This document shows positions 17,338 through 54,149 of a stretch of DNA of 64,000 bases, piece by piece; the stretch's first letter is position 1; each line of letters begins with the position of its first letter. Source of the DNA: Nocardioides marmoriginsengisoli (GTDB taxonomy: Bacteria > Actinomycetota > Actinomycetes > Propionibacteriales > Nocardioidaceae); contig NZ_RJSE01000009.1 in the NCBI RefSeq assembly GCF_003725695.1, forward strand, positions 124,001 to 188,000, in the 5' to 3' direction. A program made the translations under genes and the position numbers. The notes below the pieces were generated by a model. It worked only from the letters and a program-made list of their open reading frames with translations, made no database searches and had not been told where the DNA came from.

Positions 17338-18513
17338 GTGACTCCCCAGCGCCCGCGCCCCTGGCTGATGCTCGGGCTGTCCACGCTCGGGCAGTCCGCC
17401 AGCTCGGCCGCGGTCAACGGGCCGGCCTTCCTGATCCCGGCGCTGCACCATGGCGGGCTCAGCCTGGCCACGGCAGGACTGATCGCCGCCGCCGCCATCG
17501 CCGGCAGCACCTGCACCCTGGTGCTCTGGGGCGCGGTGGTCGATGCGAGCGGCGAGCGGTTCGTCCTGGTCAGCAGCCTGGCGTCCTCGGCCCTCGCCCT
17601 GGCGGCGGCCGCCTGGTTCCACGAGAGCACCGTCCTGCTGGGGGTGTTCCTGTTCCTGGCCGGAGCGGCCTCCGCGGGGACCTCGTCGGCCAGCGGGCGG
17701 GTCGTGGTCGGCTGGTTCCCGCCGCGACGCCGCGGCACCGCGATGGGCATCCGGCAGATGGCACAACCGATCGGTGTCGGGCTGGCGGCGATCGCGATCC
17801 CGGTCATGGCCGACCTGCACGGTATCGGCGCCGCGCTCGCCGTACCGGCCGCCTTCGCCGCGGTCACCGCGCTGGCCTGCTGGGCCTGGGTGCTCGACCC
17901 GGCGCGACCACCGCGCCCGGCGGACGTCGCCGCGGAGAACCCGTACCGCAACAGCACCTACCTGACCCGGATCCACGCGGTCTCGATCCTGCTGGTCATC
18001 CCGCAGTTCACGGTCTGGACCTTCATGCTGGTCTGGCTGCAGGTCGGACGGGACTGGAGCCCCGGAGCGGCCGGAGCGCTGGTCGCGGCGGCCCAGGTCC
18101 TCGGCGCCGTCGGCCGGATCGGCGCCGGACACCTCTCCGACGTCGTCGGCTCCCGCACCCGGCCGCTGCGCTGGGTGGCAGTCGCCGCCGGGCTCACCAT
18201 GCTCGCCGTCGGCGTCACCATCCGGCTGGACTGGTCGGTCGCCGTCCCGCTGATCATGCTCGCCACCATGATCACCGTCGCCGACAACGGCCTCGCCTTC
18301 ACCGCGGTCGCCGAGCGTGCCGGCCCGTTCTGGTCGGGTCGCGCGCTCGGCCTGCAGAACACCGGCCAGTACCTGACCGCCACCGCGGTCCCCCCGCTGA
18401 TCGGCCTCCTGATCCCGCTCTGGGGGTACGGCGTCGCCTTCGGACTGACCGGCCTCTTCCCCCTCCTCGCCGCCCCCCTGGTCCCCCGCGACGAAGCGGA
18501 CCTCGACACCTAG
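17338..18513 (+). CDS. MFS transporter
   Basis: 391 residues with about twelve hydrophobic segments. The loop between segments 2 and 3 reads GAVVDASGERFVL and the matching loop in the second half GHLSDVVGSRTR, both the G-x-x-x-D-x-x-G-R/S motif of the major facilitator superfamily. Start GTG at 17338 follows TAGCGT by 7 bp (leaderless). It is divergent from hutH and shares an operator, so uptake of histidine, urocanate or a related compound is a reasonable guess; nothing in the sequence shows the substrate. Confidence 0.85.
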   Translation: MTPQRPRPWLMLGLSTLGQSASSAAVNGPAFLIPALHHGGLSLATAGLIAAAAIAGSTCTLVLWGAVVDASGERFVLVSSLASSALALAAAAWFHESTVLLGVFLFLAGAASAGTSSASGRVVVGWFPPRRRGTAMGIRQMAQPIGVGLAAIAIPVMADLHGIGAALAVPAAFAAVTALACWAWVLDPARPPRPADVAAENPYRNSTYLTRIHAVSILLVIPQFTVWTFMLVWLQVGRDWSPGAAGALVAAAQVLGAVGRIGAGHLSDVVGSRTRPLRWVAVAAGLTMLAVGVTIRLDWSVAVPLIMLATMITVADNGLAFTAVAERAGPFWSGRALGLQNTGQYLTATAVPPLIGLLIPLWGYGVAFGLTGLFPLLAAPLVPRDEADLDT

Positions 18514-18520
18514 CCGACCC

Positions 18521-18610
18521 CGTCGAGTGGGCCCTTGTCGTCCGTCGAGTGGGCCCTTGTTGTCCGGCCAGTGGGCCCTTGTCGTCCGTCGAGTTGTGAC
18601 GGGCCCTTGC
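18521..18610. repeat. Tandem 22-bp GGGCCC repeat, locus A
   Basis: Three adjacent units (18521-18542, 18543-18564, 18565-18586), each of the form CGTCGAGTGGGCCCTTGTYG + TC, and a degenerate fourth to 18610. The period is exactly 22 bp. It fills the gap between the MFS stop and the pentapeptide gene. Related arrays are at 38602 and 53221. Confidence 0.85.
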
Positions 18611-18655
18611 GGTAGAAACGTCCCGCCCCGACCGACCAGATCTCCAGGACGTCTC

Positions 18656-19327
18656 ATGCCCCGACCCGCACGCCGTACGACGATCGCCCCCGCCTTCGAC
18701 CAGATCATCCTGGGCGACCTCCGACCTGCAGACGCCAGCGAGCTCTCCGACGGCACCGTCATCGACGGCCTCCAGTTCGACGAGATCACCGTGGACGAGT
18801 GGCGGGTCGATGCCCGCACCGGCCTGGAGTCCTCGCTGTTCCGCGGGGTCGTCGCCGATCGCTGGGAGATCCGCGGCGCCAAGGTCGCCGAGACGATCGT
18901 GGAGCGCGGCGACTTCACCACCACCTCCGGCGGCCGAGCCCGGATGCGCGACGTCGAGGTTCGAGACAGCAGGTTCGGGGCCGCCGAGCTCTTCGGGTCG
19001 AAGCTGAACAGCGTCCGGTTCACCCGCTGCAAGCTGGGCTACGTCAATCTGCGTGCAACCGAGCTGACCAACGTCGCGTTCGTCGACTGCACCATCGAGG
19101 ACCTCGACCTGATGGAGGCCGTCGCGGACCGGGTCGCGCTGAGCGGCTCGCGGATCGGGGCCCTGCACCTGACCGGTTCCACCCTCACCAACGTCGACCT
19201 GCGCGGAGCCGACCTGACCGAGATCGTCGGTCTCGACCATCTGCGCGGCGCGACCATCTCCACCGACCAGCTGATGGCGCTCGCGCCGGCGATGGCCACC
19301 GGGATGGGGATCCGCGTCGAGGACTGA
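18656..19327 (+). CDS. Pentapeptide-repeat-like protein
   Basis: 223 residues. After a polar N-terminus, residues about 60-205 repeat a five-residue pattern A/V(D/N)LxX: for example ESSLFRGVVADRWEIRG, DSRFGAAELFGSKLNSVRF, YVNLRATELTNVAF, STLTNVDLRGADLTEI. That gives the quadrilateral beta-helix of pentapeptide proteins. Such proteins can mimic DNA or act as scaffolds; the function here is unknown. The start at 18656 has AGGA 8 bp upstream, just past the 22-bp repeat array. Confidence 0.75.
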   Translation: MPRPARRTTIAPAFDQIILGDLRPADASELSDGTVIDGLQFDEITVDEWRVDARTGLESSLFRGVVADRWEIRGAKVAETIVERGDFTTTSGGRARMRDVEVRDSRFGAAELFGSKLNSVRFTRCKLGYVNLRATELTNVAFVDCTIEDLDLMEAVADRVALSGSRIGALHLTGSTLTNVDLRGADLTEIVGLDHLRGATISTDQLMALAPAMATGMGIRVED

Positions 19328-23344: not shown

Positions 23345-26170
23345 TTGGACACCAAGCTCACGCTCATCCTGGGCCTGATCCTGAACATCGTGATCCTGCC
23401 GCTCGCCCTGAAGCGGGTGATCTTCCTGGTGCGGCTGATCACGGGGGGCAAGCCGGCCCCGGACCGCATCGTCGGTGTCACCTCCCGGGTGAGCAAGGCG
23501 CTGAAGAACCAGCTGGTCGAGGTCCTCGGTCAGAAGAAGCTGCTCAAGTGGTCGATCCCCGGCATCGCGCACTCCTTCGTGATGTACGCGTTCCTGATCC
23601 TCGGCACCGTGTACGTCGAGGCGTACGGCATCCTGCTGTCGACCAACGCGCACTGGAAGATCCCGCTCGTCGGCGACTGGTGGATCCTCGGCTTCGCCCA
23701 GGACCTGATCGGCGTGCTCTGCCTGGTCGGCCTGCTGACCTTCGCGATCATCCGCTACAAGAACCAGCCGGCGAAGCTCGGCCGCAAGTCCCGGTTCAAG
23801 GGGTCGCACACCGGCGGCGCCTGGGTCGTCCTGATCATGATCTTCAACGTCATCTGGACGATGTTCCTGTTCCGCGGCGCGGCCGCCGCGGCGGACAACC
23901 TGCCCTACAGCAGCAGCTCGGCGTTCTTCTCGCACGCCATCGGCAACGTGATCAACTCGATGGGCCTGCACCACGGCGACAACGGCCTGGAGATCCTCGA
24001 GGGCGTCGGCCTGCTGCTGCACATCGGGATCATGCTGGTCTTCCTGATCATCGTGCTGAACTCCAAGCACCTGCACATCTTCGTGGCGCCGATCAACATC
24101 ATGTTCAAGCGCCCCGACGGCCCGGTCGCGCTCGGCGCGGTCAAGGAGATGATCTCCGACGGCAAGGCGATCACCCTCGACGACGTCGAGGACCTCGACG
24201 AGGAAACCGTCCTGGGCATCGGCTCGATCGAGGACTTCTCGTGGAAGGGCCTGCTCGACATGGCCAGCTGCACCGAGTGCGGCCGCTGCCAGTCCCAGTG
24301 CCCGGCCTGGAACACCGAGAAGCCGCTCTCGCCGAAGATGCTGATCATGAACGCGCGCGACCACGCGTTCGCCAAGGCGCCGTTCCTGATGACGCCCGAG
24401 GACAAGCGCAGCGAGCTGCCCGCCGAGGTCCTGGCCGAGGCCGAGCGCCCGCTGGTCGGCGTCTCCGAGGGTGAGTACGCGTGGCACCCCGAGGGCGGCG
24501 CGATCATCGACAACGACGTGCTCTGGTCCTGCACCAACTGCGGCGCCTGCGTGAACCAGTGCCCGGTCGACATCGAGCACGTCGACCACATCATCGACAT
24601 GCGCCGCTACCAGGTGCTGGTCGAGGCGAACTTCCCGGCCGAGCTCAACGGACTTTTCAAGGGCCTGGAGAACAAGGGCAACCCCTGGAACATGAACCCG
24701 AACGCCCGGATGGAGTGGGCGCAGGGACTCGACTTCGACGTGAAGGTCGTCGGCGAGGACGTCCAGGACCTGACCGAGGTCGACTGGCTGTTCTGGGTCG
24801 GCTGCGCCGGCGCCTACGAGGACCGGGCCAAGAAGACCACCCGCGCGGTGGCCGAGCTGCTCGACATGGCGGGCGTCTCCTTCGCCGTCCTGGGCAACGG
24901 CGAGACCTGCACCGGTGACTCCGCTCGCCGGGCCGGCAACGAGTTCGTCTTCCAGGCGCTCGCGCAGCAGAACATCGAGACGTTCAACGAGCACAAGGTC
25001 AAGAAGGTCGTCTCGACCTGCGCGCACTGCTTCAACACGTTGAAGAACGAGTACAAGCAGTTCGGCATCGAGCTCGAGGTCGTGCACCACACCCAGCTGC
25101 TCAACCGTCTGGTGCGCGAGAAGAAGCTGACCCCGGTCGCGGCCCCCGGCCCGACCCGCAAGATCACCTACCACGACCCCTGCTTCCTGGGCCGTCACAA
25201 CCAGGTCTACTCGCCGCCGCGCGAGCTGCTCCAGGTGATCCCGGGCTCCGAGGTCGTCGAGATGCCGCGCAGCGCCGAGCGCTCCTTCTGCTGCGGCGCC
25301 GGTGGCGCCCGGATGTGGATGGAGGAGACCATCGGCGAGCGGATCAACGTGAACCGCACCGCCGAGGCCGTCGAGACCGGCGCCGACCAGATCGCCGTCG
25401 GCTGCCCGTTCTGCCGCACGATGCTCGAGGACGGCCTCACCAGCGAGCAGGACGCCGGCCGCGCCGGTGAGAACGTCGAGGTCCTCGACGTCGCCCAGCT
25501 GCTGCTCGCGTCGGTCAAGGGCGAGGGCAAGAAGGAGAAGGCCCCGGCCGCGAAGAAGGCTCCCGCCGCTCCGGCTGCGCCTGCCGAGCCGGCTGAGGCT
25601 CCCGCGGCTGCTCCGGCCGCCGGTGGATCGCTCTTCGACTCGGCCCCGGCCGCACCCGCCGCTCCGGCTGCCGGCGGATCGCTCTTCGACACCCCGGCGG
25701 AGCCTGCCGCTCCGGCCTCGGGCGGATCGTTGTTCGACACTCCGGCCCCAGCCGCTCCGGCCGCCGGCGGATCGCTCTTCGACACTCCGGCCCCGGCCGC
25801 TCCGGACGTCGAGCCTGTCGAGACGCCCGCACCCAAGGCAGAGACCGCACCCAAGGCCGACCTCGGCTCGGGCGGATCACTCTTCGACGTAGCCCCCACC
25901 GAGGCCGCACCGAACGTCGAGCCTGTCGAGACGCCCGCACCCAAGGCAGCGGCTGCACCCCAGGCCGACCTCGGTTCCGGGTCGCTCTTCGACATCGCCC
26001 CCGCCGAGCCGGCCACGACCCCCGTCGCCGAGCCGGCTGCGGAAGCAGAGGAGCCCGAGGCGGAGCCCGAGCCCGAGGAGAAGCCGGCGCCCCCGGCCAG
26101 CTCGGGCGAGGCGCACCAGCCGAAGACCGACACCAAGATCCCCGAGGGCGGATCGCTGTTCGACCTCTGA
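23345..26170 (+). CDS. etfD: EtfD-like membrane iron-sulfur reductase
   Basis: 941 residues. It matches the mycobacterial Rv0338c/EtfD type, which takes electrons from the electron-transfer flavoprotein during fatty acid beta-oxidation and passes them to the membrane quinone pool. Six hydrophobic segments in the first 250 residues form the NarI-like heme part. Two 4Fe-4S ferredoxin motifs follow, CTECGRCQSQCP (about 309) and CTNCGACVNQCP (about 396). Then two CCG-type cysteine domains with WVGCAGAYEDR, CAHCFNTL, DPCFLGRHN and CCGAGGARMW, and CPFCRTML. Residues about 735-941 are an Ala/Pro tail with seven (G)GSLFD units, ending in GGSLFDL. The TTG start has GGAG 9 bp upstream. A TetR-type site upstream links it to the FadE5-like gene. 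Confidence 0.88.
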   Translation: MDTKLTLILGLILNIVILPLALKRVIFLVRLITGGKPAPDRIVGVTSRVSKALKNQLVEVLGQKKLLKWSIPGIAHSFVMYAFLILGTVYVEAYGILLSTNAHWKIPLVGDWWILGFAQDLIGVLCLVGLLTFAIIRYKNQPAKLGRKSRFKGSHTGGAWVVLIMIFNVIWTMFLFRGAAAAADNLPYSSSSAFFSHAIGNVINSMGLHHGDNGLEILEGVGLLLHIGIMLVFLIIVLNSKHLHIFVAPINIMFKRPDGPVALGAVKEMISDGKAITLDDVEDLDEETVLGIGSIEDFSWKGLLDMASCTECGRCQSQCPAWNTEKPLSPKMLIMNARDHAFAKAPFLMTPEDKRSELPAEVLAEAERPLVGVSEGEYAWHPEGGAIIDNDVLWSCTNCGACVNQCPVDIEHVDHIIDMRRYQVLVEANFPAELNGLFKGLENKGNPWNMNPNARMEWAQGLDFDVKVVGEDVQDLTEVDWLFWVGCAGAYEDRAKKTTRAVAELLDMAGVSFAVLGNGETCTGDSARRAGNEFVFQALAQQNIETFNEHKVKKVVSTCAHCFNTLKNEYKQFGIELEVVHHTQLLNRLVREKKLTPVAAPGPTRKITYHDPCFLGRHNQVYSPPRELLQVIPGSEVVEMPRSAERSFCCGAGGARMWMEETIGERINVNRTAEAVETGADQIAVGCPFCRTMLEDGLTSEQDAGRAGENVEVLDVAQLLLASVKGEGKKEKAPAAKKAPAAPAAPAEPAEAPAAAPAAGGSLFDSAPAAPAAPAAGGSLFDTPAEPAAPASGGSLFDTPAPAAPAAGGSLFDTPAPAAPDVEPVETPAPKAETAPKADLGSGGSLFDVAPTEAAPNVEPVETPAPKAAAAPQADLGSGSLFDIAPAEPATTPVAEPAAEAEEPEAEPEPEEKPAPPASSGEAHQPKTDTKIPEGGSLFDL
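25801..25824. repeat. Palindromic repeat copy in the EtfD tail
   Basis: TCCGGAC-GTCGAGCCTGTCGAGAC; encodes DVEPVET in frame. The flank is identical to the copy at 15591. Confidence 0.75.
25915..25932. repeat. Second palindromic repeat copy in the EtfD tail
   Basis: CGTCGAGCCTGTCGAGAC, encodes NVEPVET; followed by the same CGCCCGCACCCAAGGCA as the first copy, so the segment was probably duplicated together. Confidence 0.75.
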
Positions 26171-33558: not shown

Positions 33559-33634
33559 GCGGATGTAGCTCAGCTGGTAGAGCGCGACCTTCCCAAGGTC
33601 GATGTCGCGAGTTCGAATCTCGTCATCCGCTCCA
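33559..33634 (+). tRNA. tRNA-Gly(CCC), CCA encoded
   Basis: Acceptor GCGGATG pairs with CATCCGC; D-arm GCTC...GAGC; anticodon stem CGACC/GGTCG with loop TTCCCAA giving anticodon CCC; T-arm GCGAG-TTCGAAT-CTCGT. Discriminator T and encoded CCA (33632-33634). It reads the rare-in-family GGG codon by Watson-Crick pairing. No integrated element is attached to its 3' end. Confidence 0.95.
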
Positions 33635-37964: not shown

Positions 37965-38600
37965 ATGACCGACTTCACCGGCTTCCCCGAGGCGGCGCTC
38001 GACTTCTACGACGACCTCGAGATCGACAACACCAAGTCCTTCTGGGAAGCCCACAAGCCGACGTACCTTGACTCGGTCAAGGCACCGATGACCGCGCTCA
38101 CTGATGCGTTGGCGCCCGAGTTCGGAGCCGCCAAGGTCTTCCGCCCCTTCCGCGACGTCCGGTTCGCCAAGGACAAGACGCCGTACAAGACCAACCAGGG
38201 GGCGTTCGTCGGCGCCGGACCGGCGTGCGGCTGGTACGTCGAGATCGCGGCGCGCGGGGTCCGCACCGGGGCGGGGTTCTACGACGCCAGCTCCTCCGAC
38301 CTGGCCCGGATCCGGACCTCGATCGACAACGAGGCCACCGGCAAGCAGCTCGAACGGATCCTGGCCAAGCTCACGAAGGCCGGCTTCACCGTCGGCGGCG
38401 ACCGGTTGAAGACCTCGCCGCGCGGGTACGACGCCGATCACCCGCGCATCGAGCTGCTCCGGCACCGGTCGCTCACGGTCGGCAAGGACTACGGCTTCGC
38501 GCCGATCATCCACACCGCCGACCTGCTGGACGCCGTACGGAAGGACTGGACCGCTGCCCGGTCGCTCGTCGACTGGGTCAGCGAGCGTCTCGGCGACTAG
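37965..38600 (+). CDS. DUF2461 (TIGR02453) family protein
   Basis: 211 residues. The start FTGFPEAALDFYDDLEIDNTKSFWEAHKPTY, then FRPFRDVRFAKDKTPYKTNQGAF and GAGFYDASSSDLARIR, is characteristic of DUF2461. Function unknown; the family has no proven activity. Leaderless promoter TAGGCT-N7-ATG. Its stop is directly followed by a three-unit GGGCCC repeat array. Confidence 0.88.
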   Translation: MTDFTGFPEAALDFYDDLEIDNTKSFWEAHKPTYLDSVKAPMTALTDALAPEFGAAKVFRPFRDVRFAKDKTPYKTNQGAFVGAGPACGWYVEIAARGVRTGAGFYDASSSDLARIRTSIDNEATGKQLERILAKLTKAGFTVGGDRLKTSPRGYDADHPRIELLRHRSLTVGKDYGFAPIIHTADLLDAVRKDWTAARSLVDWVSERLGD

Positions 38601-38601
38601 A

Positions 38602-38658
38602 GGGGCCCACTCGACCGACTATTGGGCCCATTCGACCGACAACAAGGGCCGATTCAAC
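38602..38658. repeat. Tandem GGGCCC repeat, locus B
   Basis: Three units with GGGCCC/GGGCCG at 38603, 38624 and 38646 (spacing 21 and 22 bp), each followed by ACTCGACC, ATTCGACC or ATTCAAC. Orientation is opposite to locus A. It lies between the DUF2461 stop and the -10 of the next gene. Confidence 0.8.
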
Positions 38659-38675: not shown

Positions 38676-39494
38676 ATGACCCTCGTGGACGTGAACGGGA
38701 TCCGGCTGAACATCACCGACAGCGGGGCGCCGGCGGGGCGGCCGGACGCGCCGACGCTGGTGATGGGACACGGTCTGCTGTTCAGCACCACGATGTGGCG
38801 GCACCAGATCGAGGCGCTGCGGTCGTCGTACCGGTGCGTGGCGATCGACTGGCGGGGGCAGGGTGCGACGCCGCCGACCGAGTCCGGCTACGACATGGAC
38901 ACCCTGTACGACGACGCGGCCGCGCTGATCGAGCACCTCGACGTCGGCCCGGTGCACTACCTGGGGCTCTCGATGGGCGGGTTCGTCGGGCTCCGGCTCG
39001 GTGCCCGCCGCCCGGACCTGATCCGCTCGCTCACCCTGATCGACACCAGCGCCGGGCCGGAGGATCCGGAGAAGGTCTCGAAGTACCGGCTGCTCGCCAC
39101 CATCTACGGCGTGCTCGGGATGAAGCCGCTGCTCGGGCAGGTCGCGCCGATCATGTTCACCCCGGCGTTCATGGACACCGACGCCGGCAAGGCCACCGTG
39201 GACACCTGGACCGCCGAGCTCGCCACCCAGCAGCGCAAGGGCGTGAAGAAGGCGATCCGGGGCGTCACCGACCGGGCCGCGCTCGGGGATGAGATCCGCG
39301 GGATCACCGCGCCCACCCTGGTCATCGTCGGCTCCGAGGACGTCGCGACCCCGGTGGCCAAGGCCGAGGCGATCGCCGCCGCGATCAGCGGATCCCGGCT
39401 CGACATCCTCGCCGGCGTCGGCCACGTCAGCACGCTCGAGGACCCGGCCCGGATCAACGCCTGCGTCCAAGAGTTCCTCGCCGGTCTCGGCTGA
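38676..39494 (+). CDS. Alpha/beta hydrolase
   Basis: 272 residues with a typical alpha/beta hydrolase fold: HGLLFSTTMW oxyanion block (about 33), GLSMGGFVGLRLG with the nucleophile Ser (about 98), an Asp in IVGSEDVATP (about 220) and a His in VGHVSTLEDP (about 250). Substrate unknown; the sequence suits small ester or lactone hydrolysis. Leaderless, TAGGTT-N6-ATG, with the GGGCCC array just upstream of that box. Confidence 0.85.
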   Translation: MTLVDVNGIRLNITDSGAPAGRPDAPTLVMGHGLLFSTTMWRHQIEALRSSYRCVAIDWRGQGATPPTESGYDMDTLYDDAAALIEHLDVGPVHYLGLSMGGFVGLRLGARRPDLIRSLTLIDTSAGPEDPEKVSKYRLLATIYGVLGMKPLLGQVAPIMFTPAFMDTDAGKATVDTWTAELATQQRKGVKKAIRGVTDRAALGDEIRGITAPTLVIVGSEDVATPVAKAEAIAAAISGSRLDILAGVGHVSTLEDPARINACVQEFLAGLG

Positions 39495-48794: not shown

Positions 48795-51269
48795 ATGCGA
48801 AACACCCGAATCCGCTCTGCCCTGCCCGCCCTGCTCGTGGGTGGCCTGCTGGCCGCCGTCACCCAGGTGCCGGCCTCCGCCGCGGTCCCGACCCCGGCAG
48901 GCGACGAGGCGGTGATCAGCGTGCGCACCGGCGGCGACCGGCTCAGCGGCGGCATCGGCGCCACCGCCGTGTCCCGCCTCGCCGGGGTCAAGCTCGCCCT
49001 GTACGCCGACGCCACCGCACAGGACCCGATCGCCGAGCCGTGGGCCACCTGCACGTCGGACGCAGGCGGCGACTGCTCGTTCGTGGTTCCCGACACCGAC
49101 CCGGGCGGGGCGAACGAGGACCGTCGGTTCGTCGTACGCCAGCTCGCGGCTCCGGCGGGCTGGCTGGTCAACCCGTCGCTGAGCACCGGCGGCGCCAACT
49201 CGGAAGGCACCGCGCGCCCGTACCTGTTCGAGACCGGGACCGAGCTGCGGGCCGGCGCGACCTACCTCTCCCAACGCGACTTCATGTTCGCCCCGCAGAC
49301 CACCGCGAACATGACGAACCTCGGCGCGTCCTCCGGGATCTGGCAGTCCTCCCGGGTGAATCCGTCGGTGCGCTCCGGCTGCGGTCTGGACGTCGCCCTG
49401 ATCCTCGACCTCTCGTCCTCGGTCGGCGAGGAGCTCCCCGAGCTCAAGCACGCCGCGGATGCACTGGTCGACGGGCTGGTCGGCACCAACAGCCGGGTGG
49501 CGACCTTCTCGTTCTCGAACGGCAGCCCCGCCCCGAACGGCACCCCGAACCACCCTGCCCTCGCTCCGGTGGAAACCCAGACCGGCGCCGACGCGGTCAA
49601 GGCCGGCTACGCCTCCTGGGCGGTCGGCGGCGGCACCAACTGGGACGCCGGCATGTTCGCCGCCGGCACGGCCTCCCCCCAGTACGACGTCGCAGTCGTG
49701 GTGACCGACGGACACCCGTCCGTCTACGGCAGCCCGCAGCAGTCGTTCAACTCCAGCTGGGACCGGTTCAAGGAGATGGAGTACAGCATCTTCTCGGCGA
49801 ACCTGCTCAAGTCCCAGGGGACCCGGGTGCTGGCCGTCGGCATCGGCACGCTGCTGACCGGTGACGCCGACGCCCTGAACCTCGCCGCAATCTCGGGACC
49901 GACCAAGTACGACGGCACGAACGCCGACGCCGCCGACTACTACCAGGCCGCCTCGTTCGGCGCCGCGGGTGACGCGCTGGCCACCGTCGCGGAGAGCTTC
50001 TGCGCGCCGAAGCTGCACCTGGAGAAGCGGATCGCCCGGGTCCAGGACGTGAACGACAACGGCGTCAACGACGCCGGCGACAAGATCTGGTGGGAGTTCG
50101 ACCTGCACAACACCGGCGCCGTCCCGCTGACCGACCTCCAGGTCAAGGACCCGCTGCTGTCCGGTCGGTCGATCCCGGTCACCTGCCCCGCCGGGCCGCT
50201 GGCGGTCGACGCCCGGGTGACCTGCGCGGCCGACGAGGGTTACGTCATCACCGCCGAGGACGTCACCGCCGGCCAGGTGCACAACGTGGCGACCGCGACC
50301 GGCGAGAAGCCCGGCGGCAACCCTGAGGACCCGACCGACGACGTCCCCTCCGGCCCGTCCGACACCACCACGCCGGTCGAGGAGACCCCGGTGCCCGGCC
50401 TCGCGCTCACCAAGCGCGTCGCCGAGGTCCGTGACGTGAACGGCAACGGCGTCAACGACGCCGGCGACGAGATCTGGTGGGAGTTCGACCTGCACAACAC
50501 CGGCCAGACCGTCCTCACCGCCGTCCGCGTCGACGACCCGATGCTCGCCACCATCCCGGTGACCTGCCCGACGACGACCCTCGCGATCGACGAACGCACC
50601 ACCTGCAAGGCCGACGCCGGCTACGTCATCACCGCCGAGGACGTCACCGCCGGATCGGTCCACAACGTCGCCACCGCCCGGGGCGAGAAGCCCGGCGGCA
50701 ACCCCGAGGACCCGACCGACGACGTCCCCTCCAACCCCGGCGAGACCACCACCCCGGTGGAGACCCCGCCGGTGCCGGGAGTCCGGTTCGACAAGCGGGT
50801 GAGCTCGATCGAGGACGTCGACGGCGACAAGCTGGTCGACGCCGGCGACAAGGTCTACTACGAGTTCACGGTCACCAACACCGGCCAGACCACGCTGCGC
50901 GACGTCCGCGTCGACGACCCGCTGCTCACCCGGGCCCGGATCGCGGTCCTCTGCCCGCCCGGCGACCTGGCAGCGGGCCAGGACCGGACCTGCCGCTCCG
51001 AGGTCGGGTACGTCATCACCGACGCCGACGTCGCTGCGGGCTACGTCAGCAACGTGGCGACGGTCGTGGTCACGAACCCGCACGTCGACGGCCCGAAGGA
51101 GAGCGGCACCGACACCGTCACCGTCGACACCGAGGTGCTGCCGCCGGCGAGCCTGCCGGACACCGGGATGCCCACAGGCCTCTCGCTGCTGATCGCGCTG
51201 GCCCTGGCGCTGGTCACCGGCGGCGGCCTGGTCCTGTGGTCGTCACGACGGAGGACCGCTCAGTCGTGA
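48795..51269 (+). CDS. LPxTG cell-wall protein with vWFA domain and three DUF11-like repeats
   Basis: 824 residues. Signal peptide (LPALLVGGLLAAVTQVPASA). Domains: a beta-rich N-part (about 35-200); a von Willebrand A domain (about 205-400) with MIDAS DLSSSVG, GGGTNWD and VVTDGH; three DUF11-like repeats (about 410-510, 530-630, 650-750) each with DxNxNGVNDAGD/DKLVDAGD, EF(D/T)(L/V)xNTG, DVTAG and YVITxxD; two linkers of Pro/Asp/Glu. It ends in LPDTGMP, a hydrophobic stretch and SSRRRTAQS, a classic sortase signal. Start at 48795 follows the signal. The next gene starts within its stop (GTGA). No class A-type sortase is close. Confidence 0.9.
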   Translation: MRNTRIRSALPALLVGGLLAAVTQVPASAAVPTPAGDEAVISVRTGGDRLSGGIGATAVSRLAGVKLALYADATAQDPIAEPWATCTSDAGGDCSFVVPDTDPGGANEDRRFVVRQLAAPAGWLVNPSLSTGGANSEGTARPYLFETGTELRAGATYLSQRDFMFAPQTTANMTNLGASSGIWQSSRVNPSVRSGCGLDVALILDLSSSVGEELPELKHAADALVDGLVGTNSRVATFSFSNGSPAPNGTPNHPALAPVETQTGADAVKAGYASWAVGGGTNWDAGMFAAGTASPQYDVAVVVTDGHPSVYGSPQQSFNSSWDRFKEMEYSIFSANLLKSQGTRVLAVGIGTLLTGDADALNLAAISGPTKYDGTNADAADYYQAASFGAAGDALATVAESFCAPKLHLEKRIARVQDVNDNGVNDAGDKIWWEFDLHNTGAVPLTDLQVKDPLLSGRSIPVTCPAGPLAVDARVTCAADEGYVITAEDVTAGQVHNVATATGEKPGGNPEDPTDDVPSGPSDTTTPVEETPVPGLALTKRVAEVRDVNGNGVNDAGDEIWWEFDLHNTGQTVLTAVRVDDPMLATIPVTCPTTTLAIDERTTCKADAGYVITAEDVTAGSVHNVATARGEKPGGNPEDPTDDVPSNPGETTTPVETPPVPGVRFDKRVSSIEDVDGDKLVDAGDKVYYEFTVTNTGQTTLRDVRVDDPLLTRARIAVLCPPGDLAAGQDRTCRSEVGYVITDADVAAGYVSNVATVVVTNPHVDGPKESGTDTVTVDTEVLPPASLPDTGMPTGLSLLIALALALVTGGGLVLWSSRRRTAQS

Positions 51270-51731: not shown

Positions 51732-53216
51732 GTGCCCCGTCTCAGCGCTCGCGACCTGATCGAGCTCGTCCTCGACCAGGGCTCGTGGGCGCCCTGGGAC
51801 ACCCCGCCGGTCTACGGCGACGTCGCGCCGGAGTACGCCGCCGACCTCGAGGCGGCCCGGGCGAAGTCGGGCGCCGACGAGTCGGTGCTCACCGGCGAGG
51901 GCCGGATCCGGGGACGGCGGATCGCCGTCCTGGCGGGCGAGTTCTCGTTCCTGGCCGGTTCGATCGGCCAGGCCGCCGCGACCCGGCTGGTCGCCGCGAT
52001 CGAGCGCGCGACCGCGGAGGGCATCCCGCTGGTGGCCGCACCGGTCAGCGGCGGCACCCGGATGCAGGAGGGCACGCCGGCATTCGTGCACATGATTCGG
52101 ATCTCGGCGGCCATCGCCGCCCACAAGAACGCCGGACTCCCCTACCTGGTGTACCTGCGGAACCCGACCACCGGCGGCGTGATGGCCTCGTGGGGATCGC
52201 TGGGTCACGTCACCATCGCCGAACCGGGCGCGCTCGTCGGGTTCCTCGGCCCCCGGGTCTTCGAGGCGCTCTACGGCAAGCCGTTCCCGGCGAACGTGCA
52301 GACCTCCGAGAACCTCTACGCGCACGGGATCATCGACGGCGTCGTCCCGGCCGAGGAGATCGCCGACCTGCTGGACCGGACGCTGTCGATCCTGCTCGCC
52401 CGTCCCGCCGACCCCGGGCCGCCGCCGGCCCAGGGACCGCTCCCGGAGGTCGACACCTGGGACGCCGTGGTCCGCTCCCGCCGGCCCGACCGACCCGGCG
52501 TACGGCGGCTGCTGCGGTACGCCGCCACCGACGTCGTCCCGCTCAACGGCACCGGGCAGGGCGAGGCCGACCCCGGCCTGATGATCGCGCTGGCCCGGTT
52601 CGGCGACGCTCCCTGCGTCTTCCTCGGCCAGGACCGTCGCGGGCAGACCCCGTCGAAGCCGATGGGGCCCGGGGCGCTGCGCGAGGCACGTCGCGGGATG
52701 CGGCTGGCCGTCGAGCTCGGCATTCCGCTGCTGACCGTGATCGACACCCCCGGCGCGGCGCTGAGTCCGGAGGCCGAGGAGGGCGGGCTGGCCGGAGAGA
52801 TCGCCCGCTCGCTCGCCGACCTGGTCACCCTGGAGGCGCCGACGCTCTGCCTGATGCTGGGCCAGGGCAACGGCGGCGGGGCGCTCGCGCTGCTGCCCGC
52901 CGACCGGGTCGTGGCCGCCCAGCACGCCTGGCTCTCCCCGCTGCCCCCCGAGGGCGCCAGTGCGATCGTGCACCGCGACACCGAGCATGCCCCGGAGATG
53001 GCGCGGGCCCAGCGGATCCGGGCGATCGACCTCCAGGCGGCCGGGGTGGTCGACCGGATCATTCCCGAGGAGCCGGACGCCGCCGACGAGGCCGAGGCGT
53101 TCTGCCGCCGAGTGGGGGCGGTGCTGGAGCAGGAGCTCGGCGGGCTGGTCCACCGCGACGTGCCCGAGCTGGTGGCGCGGCGCTCGTACCGGTTCGCCAC
53201 GCTGCCGCCGAGCTGA
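51732..53216 (+). CDS. accD3: AccD3-like acyl-CoA carboxyltransferase (beta and alpha fused)
   Basis: 494 residues with two crotonase-like halves. N-terminal half (about 1-235): FSFLAGSIGQAAATR, VAAPVSGGTRMQEG, TTGGVMASWGSLGHVTIAEPGALVGFLGPRVFEA. C-terminal half (about 250-490): PGALREARRGMRLA, LLTVIDTPGAALSPEAEEGGLAGEIARSL, LGQGNGGGALALLPADRV. That is the carboxyltransferase pattern of acetyl-CoA carboxylase, beta and alpha in one chain, similar to mycobacterial AccD3. The zinc ribbon of AccD is missing. It would transfer CO2 from carboxybiotin to an acyl-CoA; the biotin partner is not in the window. The third GGGCCC array follows its stop. Confidence 0.85.
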   Translation: MPRLSARDLIELVLDQGSWAPWDTPPVYGDVAPEYAADLEAARAKSGADESVLTGEGRIRGRRIAVLAGEFSFLAGSIGQAAATRLVAAIERATAEGIPLVAAPVSGGTRMQEGTPAFVHMIRISAAIAAHKNAGLPYLVYLRNPTTGGVMASWGSLGHVTIAEPGALVGFLGPRVFEALYGKPFPANVQTSENLYAHGIIDGVVPAEEIADLLDRTLSILLARPADPGPPPAQGPLPEVDTWDAVVRSRRPDRPGVRRLLRYAATDVVPLNGTGQGEADPGLMIALARFGDAPCVFLGQDRRGQTPSKPMGPGALREARRGMRLAVELGIPLLTVIDTPGAALSPEAEEGGLAGEIARSLADLVTLEAPTLCLMLGQGNGGGALALLPADRVVAAQHAWLSPLPPEGASAIVHRDTEHAPEMARAQRIRAIDLQAAGVVDRIIPEEPDAADEAEAFCRRVGAVLEQELGGLVHRDVPELVARRSYRFATLPPS

Positions 53217-53220
53217 CCTG

Positions 53221-53282
53221 AAGGGCCCACTCAACGTCCCGCAGGGCCTACTCGGCGGACAAGAAGGGCCTACTCAACCTAG
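53221..53282. repeat. Tandem GGGCCC repeat, locus C
   Basis: Units with GGGCC at 53223, 53244 and 53266 (spacing 21 and 22 bp), followed by CACTCAAC, TACTCGGC and TACTCAAC. Same strand as locus B. It fills the gap between the AccD3-like stop and the KstR-type site. Confidence 0.8.
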
Positions 53283-53286
53283 ACAC

Positions 53287-53300
53287 TAGAACCTGTTTCA
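53287..53300 (+). promoter_or_regulatory. KstR-type operator TAGAACCTGTTTCA
   Basis: Fits TnnAACnnGTTnnA, the site of KstR, the TetR repressor of cholesterol genes in actinobacteria. It is 16 bp before the SDR start. No kstR gene is in the window. Confidence 0.6.
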
Positions 53301-53315
53301 GTTCCAATAGGGCGC

Positions 53316-54149
53316 GTGAGTACTTATGTCATCAGCGGGGCGGGGTCCGGGATCGGCGCCGCCACCGCTCAGCGGCTTCAGGCCGACGGGCACCGGGTCA
53401 TCGGTGTCGACCTCCGGGCGCCCGGCCCGTCGACCGACACCCTCGAGTGGATCGAGGCCGACCTGAGCAGTGAGTCCGGCCGGACCGCGGCGGTCCGCCG
53501 GGTGCAGGAGCTGGCCCCGGACGGGATCGACGGGCTGATCCCCTGCGCCGGGATCGCCGGCCTCTCGGGGGTCGACCCGGCGCTGCTGGTCTCGGTGAAC
53601 TACTTCGGCGCGATCAGCCTGGCCACCGGCCTGCGACCGCTGCTGGCGAAGTCCGGTGCCGCCTCGGTCGTGCTGATCGCCTCGAACTCGGTCACCTGCC
53701 AGCCCGGCTGGGTCAGCGACGGCGTGGTCGAGGCCTGCCTGAGCGACGACGAGGGCCGCGCCCGCACGCTCGCCGCGACCCACGAGGCGGTCGAGATGTA
53801 CCCGGCGTCGAAGTTCGCGATCGCCACCTGGGCGCGCACCGAGGGCGTCAAGGAGGCCTGGGCCGGCAGCGGGATCCGGGTGAACGCGATCGCCCCCGGC
53901 CTGATCGCCACCCCGATGACCGACCAGCTCCGCGAGGACCCGGTGTTCGGGCCGTTCGCCGACGTCTACCCGAACGCACTGGGCCGCCCCGGCCGCCCCG
54001 AGGAGGTCGCGGCTCTGATCGCGTTCCTGCTGGCTCCGGAGTCCAGCCTGCTCGTCGGCACCGTGATCCTGGTCGACGGCGGCACCGACGCGATCCTGAA
54101 CGTCTCCCCGCCGCGCAGCAACGATCAGACCACCTTCCCGGCCGGCTGA
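53316..54149 (+). CDS. HsdA-like (3alpha-hydroxysteroid/carbonyl reductase type) SDR
   Basis: 277 residues. SGAGSGIGAATAQRL is the NAD(P)-binding motif, VSVNYFGAISLATGL the N-x-x-G region, and YPASKFAIATWART the catalytic Tyr-x-x-x-Lys (about 153). The wording VSVNYFGA and the PGLIATPMTDQL, FLLAPESSLLVGTVILVDGG end are close to the Comamonas 3alpha-hydroxysteroid dehydrogenase. A KstR-type box 16 bp upstream supports a steroid substrate. The catalytic Ser is in ASNSVTC. The exact position oxidised cannot be read. Confidence 0.78.
   Translation: MSTYVISGAGSGIGAATAQRLQADGHRVIGVDLRAPGPSTDTLEWIEADLSSESGRTAAVRRVQELAPDGIDGLIPCAGIAGLSGVDPALLVSVNYFGAISLATGLRPLLAKSGAASVVLIASNSVTCQPGWVSDGVVEACLSDDEGRARTLAATHEAVEMYPASKFAIATWARTEGVKEAWAGSGIRVNAIAPGLIATPMTDQLREDPVFGPFADVYPNALGRPGRPEEVAALIAFLLAPESSLLVGTVILVDGGTDAILNVSPPRSNDQTTFPAG

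Follow-up and report, generated by a model that had tools for sequence, protein, structure and literature searches.

Downstream of an MFS transporter gene in Nocardioides marmoriginsengisoli (genome G000), three 22-bp units stand in tandem, and two similar arrays follow other genes in the same window, by which we mean the whole stretch of 64,000 nucleotides analysed here. We asked what kind of element these arrays are, how far they extend beyond this window and this species, and whether they are better understood as DNA or as RNA.

Three arrays of one unit in the window

Array A begins 8 bp 3' of the MFS stop codon (TAG, 18511-18513) and consists of GTCGAGTGGGCCCTTGTCGTCC at 18522-18543, a copy with one change at 18544-18565 and GGCCAGTGGGCCCTTGTCGTCC at 18566-18587. 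Direct reading and Tandem Repeats Finder (score 129, period 22, 3.4 copies) bore out the three units and decayed fourth unit proposed by an earlier inspection of the letters (the sequence-only reading), except that the starts it gave lay one base early. The cores of array B lie at 38603, 38624 and 38646, the first 2 bp past the preceding stop codon, and those of array C at 53223, 53244 and 53266, the first 6 bp past it. The proposal that B and C each carry three copies of the unit of A at a spacing of 21-22 bp was correct, and the unit is indeed common to all three loci, but it had escaped notice that the strand of A is opposite to that of B and C. All three start 2-8 bp beyond the stop codon of a plus-strand gene and precede a plus-strand start (Table 1; neighbouring proteins were named by Pfam, and gene calls are those of our own ORF caller).

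Table 1. Positions of the three arrays and of their flanking genes in the window.
Feature	Position	Strand	Remark
Window	G000:C4:124001-188000		genome of 4.46 Mb, 16 contigs
Locus A, three 22-bp units (GTYGAGTGGGCCC plus 9; third GGCCAG...)	18522..18587	+	sense orientation, 3' of the MFS gene
Locus A, fourth unit, decayed (GTCGAGTTG..., GGGCCC displaced)	18588..18616	+	direct reading
Locus A, upstream gene	17368..18513	+	MFS transporter (PF07690)
Locus A, downstream gene	18656..19327	+	pentapeptide-repeat protein (PF13599)
Locus B, three units	38603..38658	- (GTYGAG core strand)	spacing 21 + 22
Locus B, upstream gene	37965..38600	+	DUF2461 protein (PF09365)
Locus B, downstream gene	38676..39494	+	alpha/beta hydrolase (PF00561)
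Locus C, three units	53223..53278	- (GTYGAG core strand)	spacing 21 + 22
Locus C, upstream gene	51732..53216	+	carboxyl transferase (PF01039)
Locus C, downstream gene	53316..54149	+	short-chain dehydrogenase (PF13561)

Across the window, the 15-mer AAGGGCCCACTCGAC with at most three mismatches gave 10 matches against 3.9 expected, a number reached in 0 of 100 shuffles. The sole Rfam match at gathering score in the whole window was a tRNA (33559-33631), with none at the arrays. On reading, no T tract was found at A, B or C, nor any hairpin beyond those of shuffled sequences, so these loci do not look like intrinsic terminators. Two further tandem repeats lie within genes of the window: a 381-bp repeat (50036-50927; 2.3 copies, 77% matches) in the gene at 48795-51269, and 45-bp and 108-bp repeats (25610-26008) in the gene at 23345-26170. 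Between array C and the short-chain dehydrogenase gene, TAGAACCTGTTTCA (53287-53300) resembles the KstR-type box known from regulons for steroid catabolism.

Arrays occur genome-wide and gather at gene 3' ends

The sequence-only reading had suspected a genome-wide element at gene 3' ends, to be doubted if there were only three copies or if copies fell at random with respect to genes. A search of the whole genome showed neither. GGGCCYRYTCRAC had 110 matches compared with 15 for the reversed pattern, and a score-matrix scan detected at least 46 arrays with 163 units, a lower bound to which a core-pattern search added one more array at C4:416341 (L591). Because the matrix was derived from the genome that it scanned, the conservation of the core in G000 is partly a selection effect. 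A looser 14-mer with up to two mismatches was swamped by background in the whole genome (173 matches versus 262 in the control).

Placement was non-random. In 48 stretches, 47 of them picked around matches (379,146 bases, 9.1% non-coding by our ORF caller), 84 of 105 matches were intergenic. Among the 45 arrays with known context, 22 separated convergent genes, 21 co-directional genes and 2 divergent genes; relative to the other gene pairs of the same stretches, convergent pairs were enriched (P 5.8e-8) and divergent pairs depleted (P 0.011). The arrangement of a plus-strand stop followed by a plus-strand start, proposed from A, B and C, thus describes these three loci but is not a general rule.

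The arms of an array also have a preferred direction. With '<' denoting a unit whose GTYGAG core is on the plus strand and '>' its reverse, two-armed arrays of G000 take the form '<<...>>', with the GTYGAG ends outward: among 26 junctions, 25 were '<>' and one was '><'. Of 40 two-armed arrays from other species, 39 contained '<>' and 5 contained '><'. Arms often begin flush with the stop codon or include it (GT-TGA-G): of 120 sense arms from other species, 86 begin -9 to 15 bp from the stop, 32 of these with the stop codon inside the unit. For single-arm arrays between co-directional genes the bias is weak, only a tendency: the sense orientation was found in 8 of 12 in G000 (P 0.39) and in 35 of 52 in the pooled set (P 0.018), and B and C are themselves of the antisense kind.

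Gap lengths at convergent genes reveal what an array adds. Convergent pairs numbered 58 in the stretches of G000, and the median gap was 8.5 bp for the 36 pairs without an array, 105 bp for the 15 with a two-armed array and 64 bp for the 7 with a one-armed array, most of the gap in array-bearing pairs being the array. Since convergent gaps with arrays are far longer than those without, the array represents added DNA.

Periods and arm gaps lie close to whole helical turns

The sequence-only reading had taken the two-turn spacing of the units to be meaningful, which the periods and the distances between arms support. The tandem period is 22 in most arrays, 21 in G217 (16 of 16 steps) and G145 (11 of 12), and 32 in a single array of G275 and another of G007. 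By arm gap we mean the separation of two core ends, that of the last '<' unit and that of the first '>' unit. In G000 these gaps were 9, 11, 22, 24, 30, 31 (four), 32 (three), 35 (two), 40, 41, 42 (five), 43 (two), 52 and 53 bp, and they were strongly phased at 10.5 bp (n=25; Rayleigh P 1.5e-6, phase 0.1 bp). The same was seen in other species: fourteen gaps gave a Rayleigh P of 0.026 (V test 0.004), and a newly fetched set of 22 gaps gave 6.8e-7 with a phase of -0.96 bp. Pooling the other species without the 8 gaps below 18 bp and without G272, G208 and G232, which were left out for a palindromic or ambiguous core, gave P 1.5e-7 and a phase of -1.05 bp (n=33); one value per species and distance gave 6.7e-5 (n=25), and the set with nothing dropped gave 8.8e-5 (n=65). 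The mean phase of the other species is about 1 bp away from that of G000. Off phase were two gaps of 35 bp that have a centre in common and one of 24 bp in G000, and gaps of 24, 38 and 28 bp elsewhere.

Gaps of equal length in G000 had class mean identities of 0.38-0.50, compared with 0.28-0.33 after shuffling, and one 31-bp pair reached 0.8; seven 31-bp gaps in G015 had mutual identities of 0.42-0.74. This moderate identity indicates that lengths are largely kept while letters drift, and that the gaps are not all independent cases. Periods and arm gaps in whole turns suggest that the arrays are recognised as DNA duplex, from one side of the helix. A protein bound to one face has a reason to keep such lengths and an RNA does not, and the RNA element that had been offered as an alternative is less favoured than the duplex reading.

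A family-wide core with a species-specific remainder

GGGCCC, regarded at first as the hallmark of the unit, proved to be a local variant. Read in the sense direction after a stop codon, the family-wide core is GTYGAGTNGG in a unit of about 22 bp, the remainder of which is species-specific. The strict form GGGCCYACTCRAC had 52 matches in G000 and 0 to 3 in each of 23 other genomes of the genus, and a looser GGCC-type tandem pattern, searched in 341 genomes of the family, had 44 matches in G000, 43 in G280, 11 in G290, 6 in G189, 4 in G016 and 0-3 elsewhere (controls 0-2). Pattern searches of relatives' contigs returned 36 stretches with the looser and none with the stricter pattern. Loci read in Nocardioides sp. 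TF02-7 (G290), N. insulae DSM 17944 (G189), the MAG Nocardioides sp. Bacteria.bin_20 (G280) and N. carbamazepini (G153) had their own units with GTYGARTNGG in common. Within the genus G016 was an exception, with two-armed arrays present and 3 of 6 fetched loci adjoining genes that also border arrays in G000.

At the thymidine kinase junction (PF00265), G000, G008, G012 and G007 each carry an array with a different unit, which led us to search with the wider core. The pattern GAGTNGG, a free gap (period 15 to 44) and GTYGAGTNGG had 142 matches in 24 genus genomes compared with 35 in the control, 88 of them at a period of 22, 17 at 44, 8 at 21, 6 at 42 and 23 at fifteen other values. G005, G015, G008, G000, G012 and G020 had 14 to 30 matches each, and 5 of the 24 genomes had none. 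In all, arrays were observed in 21 species of Nocardioidaceae and in G550 of another family; the family model search covered 18 candidates per genome. All 17 tabulated species consensus sequences start with GTYGA (the table being without G272, G208, G232, G007 and G275). In arrays of G272 and G208 (L269-L275, L280) the core has turned into the exact palindrome GCCGAGTCGGC, which makes the direction of their arms ambiguous. The notion that the element is peculiar to N. marmoriginsengisoli was dropped, as orthologous junctions in other species carry versions with a different remainder.

A class-level scan of 394 genomes found matches in 36; a clear excess was confined to G000, G169, G217 and G550, the rest having 0-2 (controls 0-3). 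The viral matches listed were isolated and mostly of period 21; the one stretch among them with two matches (L507) had no array of three or more units on inspection. Far from Actinomycetota, arrays with a 22-bp period were seen in a Bacteroidales MAG (L217 50-158, 5 units, GTTGAATCGGCC-type core) and a Prevotellaceae MAG (L221 1532-1618, 4 units, GGCCAACTCAAC-type core), and are chance minisatellites, contamination or real relatives. Two arrays with GTCGAGTGGGCC-type cores are intergenic on one contig of the Gordonia sp. UBA7599 MAG (L228 265-329, 3 units; L244 6179-6265, 4 units).

The same junctions in relatives and a possible selfish origin

Several junctions carry arrays in more than one species. 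Besides the thymidine kinase junction, arrays follow a metallo-hydrolase-like gene (identified by reading its sequence) in G008, G012, G016, G169 and G217. In G000, G008, G016 and G217 an array ends at a Crp-like gene (PF00027, PF13545). Elsewhere the thymidine kinase junction is a gap of only 6-8 bp (G001, G020, G002) or holds hairpins, judged by eye, or a different repeat. Other interspersed repeats were seen at gene ends of relatives (L293, L290, L321, L309), with GGTTTCGACACGCTCAACCACC, GGTCTCGACAAGCTCGACCACC or GGTTGAGGC...GCCTCAACCACC; those of L293, L290 and L321 share their junction with an array of G000. As array-less convergent genes nearly abut and close relatives are array-less at the same junctions, an array is unnecessary at any given place.

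Unit linkers are more alike within a species than at a shared junction. Over 158 arrays, linker identity was 0.56 within and 0.39 between species. At four shared junctions (metallo-hydrolase-like, Crp-like, thymidine kinase and C3:56473) it was 0.343 across species (20 comparisons), compared with 0.340 for all arrays of those species pairs, and the 14 arrays at these junctions had an identity of 0.537 to other arrays of their own species. G016 was an exception, its own arrays being unlike one another (0.39). This likeness at differing loci of one species reflects concerted evolution or repeated re-colonisation.

These observations bear on the strongest alternative, which we consider possible though somewhat doubtful: a selfish or neutral BIME/REPIN-like element, copied and amplified in tandem, which would be tolerated at gene ends since promoters and coding DNA exclude it, and whose phasing would reflect the binding geometry of a copying enzyme with no host function. 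It accounts for the patchy spread of the GGCC-type pattern, for the added DNA and for linkers that are no more alike at shared junctions, and it stays strong because the arrays are dispensable where relatives have the same junction empty or filled with different DNA. Against it, no target duplication was demonstrated, no transposase was prominent among the families recurring beside arrays, and arrays at one junction in 4-5 species would seem to exceed what random insertion predicts.

A copying enzyme of the known kind was likewise not found. According to passages of one report, REPs are short, extragenic and present in many copies, lie mostly between convergent or co-directional genes and commonly form inverted dimers, and in two species most REPs of convergent gaps lie less than 20 bp from a 3' end (PMC3733652). 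Excerpts of another describe the units as palindromes of 20-40 bp tagged with GTAG or CGTC and tied to RAYT genes (PMC2817692). The arrays resemble the REPs and BIMEs of Proteobacteria and others in being extragenic, located at gene 3' ends and rare in divergent gaps, and BIMEs, with this placement in common, are their closest parallel in genome biology; palindrome, tag and transposase are lacking here. The unit, GTYGAGTNGG plus 12 bp, is asymmetric by eye in 17 species consensus sequences, with G272 and G208 as the exception, and single arms fold no or little better than shuffled sequences (z 0.7 to -2.1). None of the 17 consensus sequences, which start with GTYGA, has a GTAG or CGTC end tag. 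Y1_Tnp (RAYT, PF01797) was found in 0 of 21 genomes, whereas the same search was positive in 5 of 14 control genomes. Unlike in REPs, head-to-tail tandems at 22 bp are the rule. Membership of the REP/RAYT family was therefore rejected. The main text of a 2025 REP survey contains neither 'Nocardioid' nor 'tandem', and its table has three Actinomycetota (PMC12306157).

Folding, promoters and slippage

The arms might instead act as RNA, forming long hairpins that stop transcription in both directions or protect mRNA 3' ends, an explanation that we regard as improbable. Two-armed arrays inevitably fold well, and far better than shuffled sequences (of 8 tested, 7 had z between -6.3 and -12.4 and one had -3.2), and relatives have hairpin terminators, judged by eye, at some of the same junctions. 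However, A, B and C fold no better than shuffles (z -0.6, 0.7 and -0.3), single arms from three other species gave 0.0, -1.7 and -2.1, and the best hairpin within 56 bases had a median z of -1.6 in gaps with two-armed and -0.6 in gaps with one-armed arrays, not clearly superior to the -0.7 of array-less gaps. Furthermore, units matched between the left and right arm had a linker identity of 0.478 compared with 0.496 for tandem neighbours. Being no more alike than neighbours, they give no sign of selection for pairing, and an origin of the two arms in RNA pairing is unsupported. A loop length in helical turns has no reason in an RNA either. Hairpins may matter where they are present.

Operator arrays for transcription factors at promoters are a very improbable explanation. 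Start codons lie 17 and 37 bp past the ends of arrays B and C, and at the B junction of G004 and G016 a single unit-like stretch, seen by eye, precedes the next gene, as operators might; but nearly half of the arrays lie between convergent genes, where no promoter is expected, and only two between divergent ones, so that the genome-wide placement largely refutes this reading. That the arrays are unrelated minisatellites, made by slippage and alike by chance, is scarcely credible: several arrays of G280, G290, G189 and G005 have near-identical units, as slippage gives, but one core recurs at non-homologous loci of the 21 family species, units mostly face outward, gaps are quantised, and the excess of GGGCCYRYTCRAC in the genome and of the wider core over its controls refutes it.

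Phased arrays as proposed sites for a DNA-binding protein

We favour protein-binding arrays that are read as duplex DNA and would most likely affect transcription where genes end. As a working mechanism, the nearest parallel is the stoperator, the site of the L5 repressor in cluster A mycobacteriophages. Stoperators are described as many asymmetric 13-bp sites scattered over short gaps between genes; they are oriented along with transcription, no longer repress when reversed, and are contacted by the repressor on a single DNA face (PMC9283540). Asymmetry and intergenic position, with the putative one-face contact, are the points of likeness. Stoperators, however, belong to phage genomes, and their repressor is known and binds as a monomer, whereas the arrays are chromosomal, tandem and phased, often two-armed, and weakly biased in orientation. 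Plasmid iterons and the TnsB sites of Tn7 are direct repeats of 17-22 bp, spaced by about two turns and bound by protein on one face. These mark one replication origin or the ends of a transposon, whereas the arrays follow genes at dozens of places. Among 473 array-adjacent proteins from 22 species, none for replication or transposition was prominent. A trans-acting gene was sought in the same set as a family recurring beside arrays: no binding protein was identified, the most frequent families reached 5 of 22 species and came from conserved gene blocks, and others, such as an amidase-like family, reached 3 species.

We tentatively lean towards a repeat element of the Nocardioidaceae made of phased protein-binding arrays of duplex DNA at gene ends, with a possible role as roadblock or insulator. 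Its observed basis is the whole-turn periods and arm gaps, the placement, the orientation of the arms and the likeness of units within species: asymmetric units of about 22 bp with the core GTYGAGTNGG sit at gene ends, either in a single arm or in two inverted ones. From this we infer a putative protein that would contact one helix face at every second (or third) turn and may bridge the two arms. With less certainty, the bound protein could act as an orientation-dependent roadblock or insulator to RNA polymerase leaving the gene. Going further, the arrays could represent an undescribed class of chromosomal element, in which helically phased, outward-facing binding arrays end genes, insulate convergent neighbours and coevolve with a species-specific DNA-binding protein across the family, which we think rather unlikely as a whole. 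Among the open-licence papers listed, the titles and the beginnings of the abstracts contained no description of such arrays.

To our knowledge, how transcription ends between tightly packed convergent genes in high-GC actinomycetes is poorly understood. A phased array exactly between such genes is a concrete, testable element, and the change of its unit from species to species offers a route to the protein behind the array. If the element is selfish, it would constitute a family of interspersed repeats lacking the transposase by which the known families are defined.
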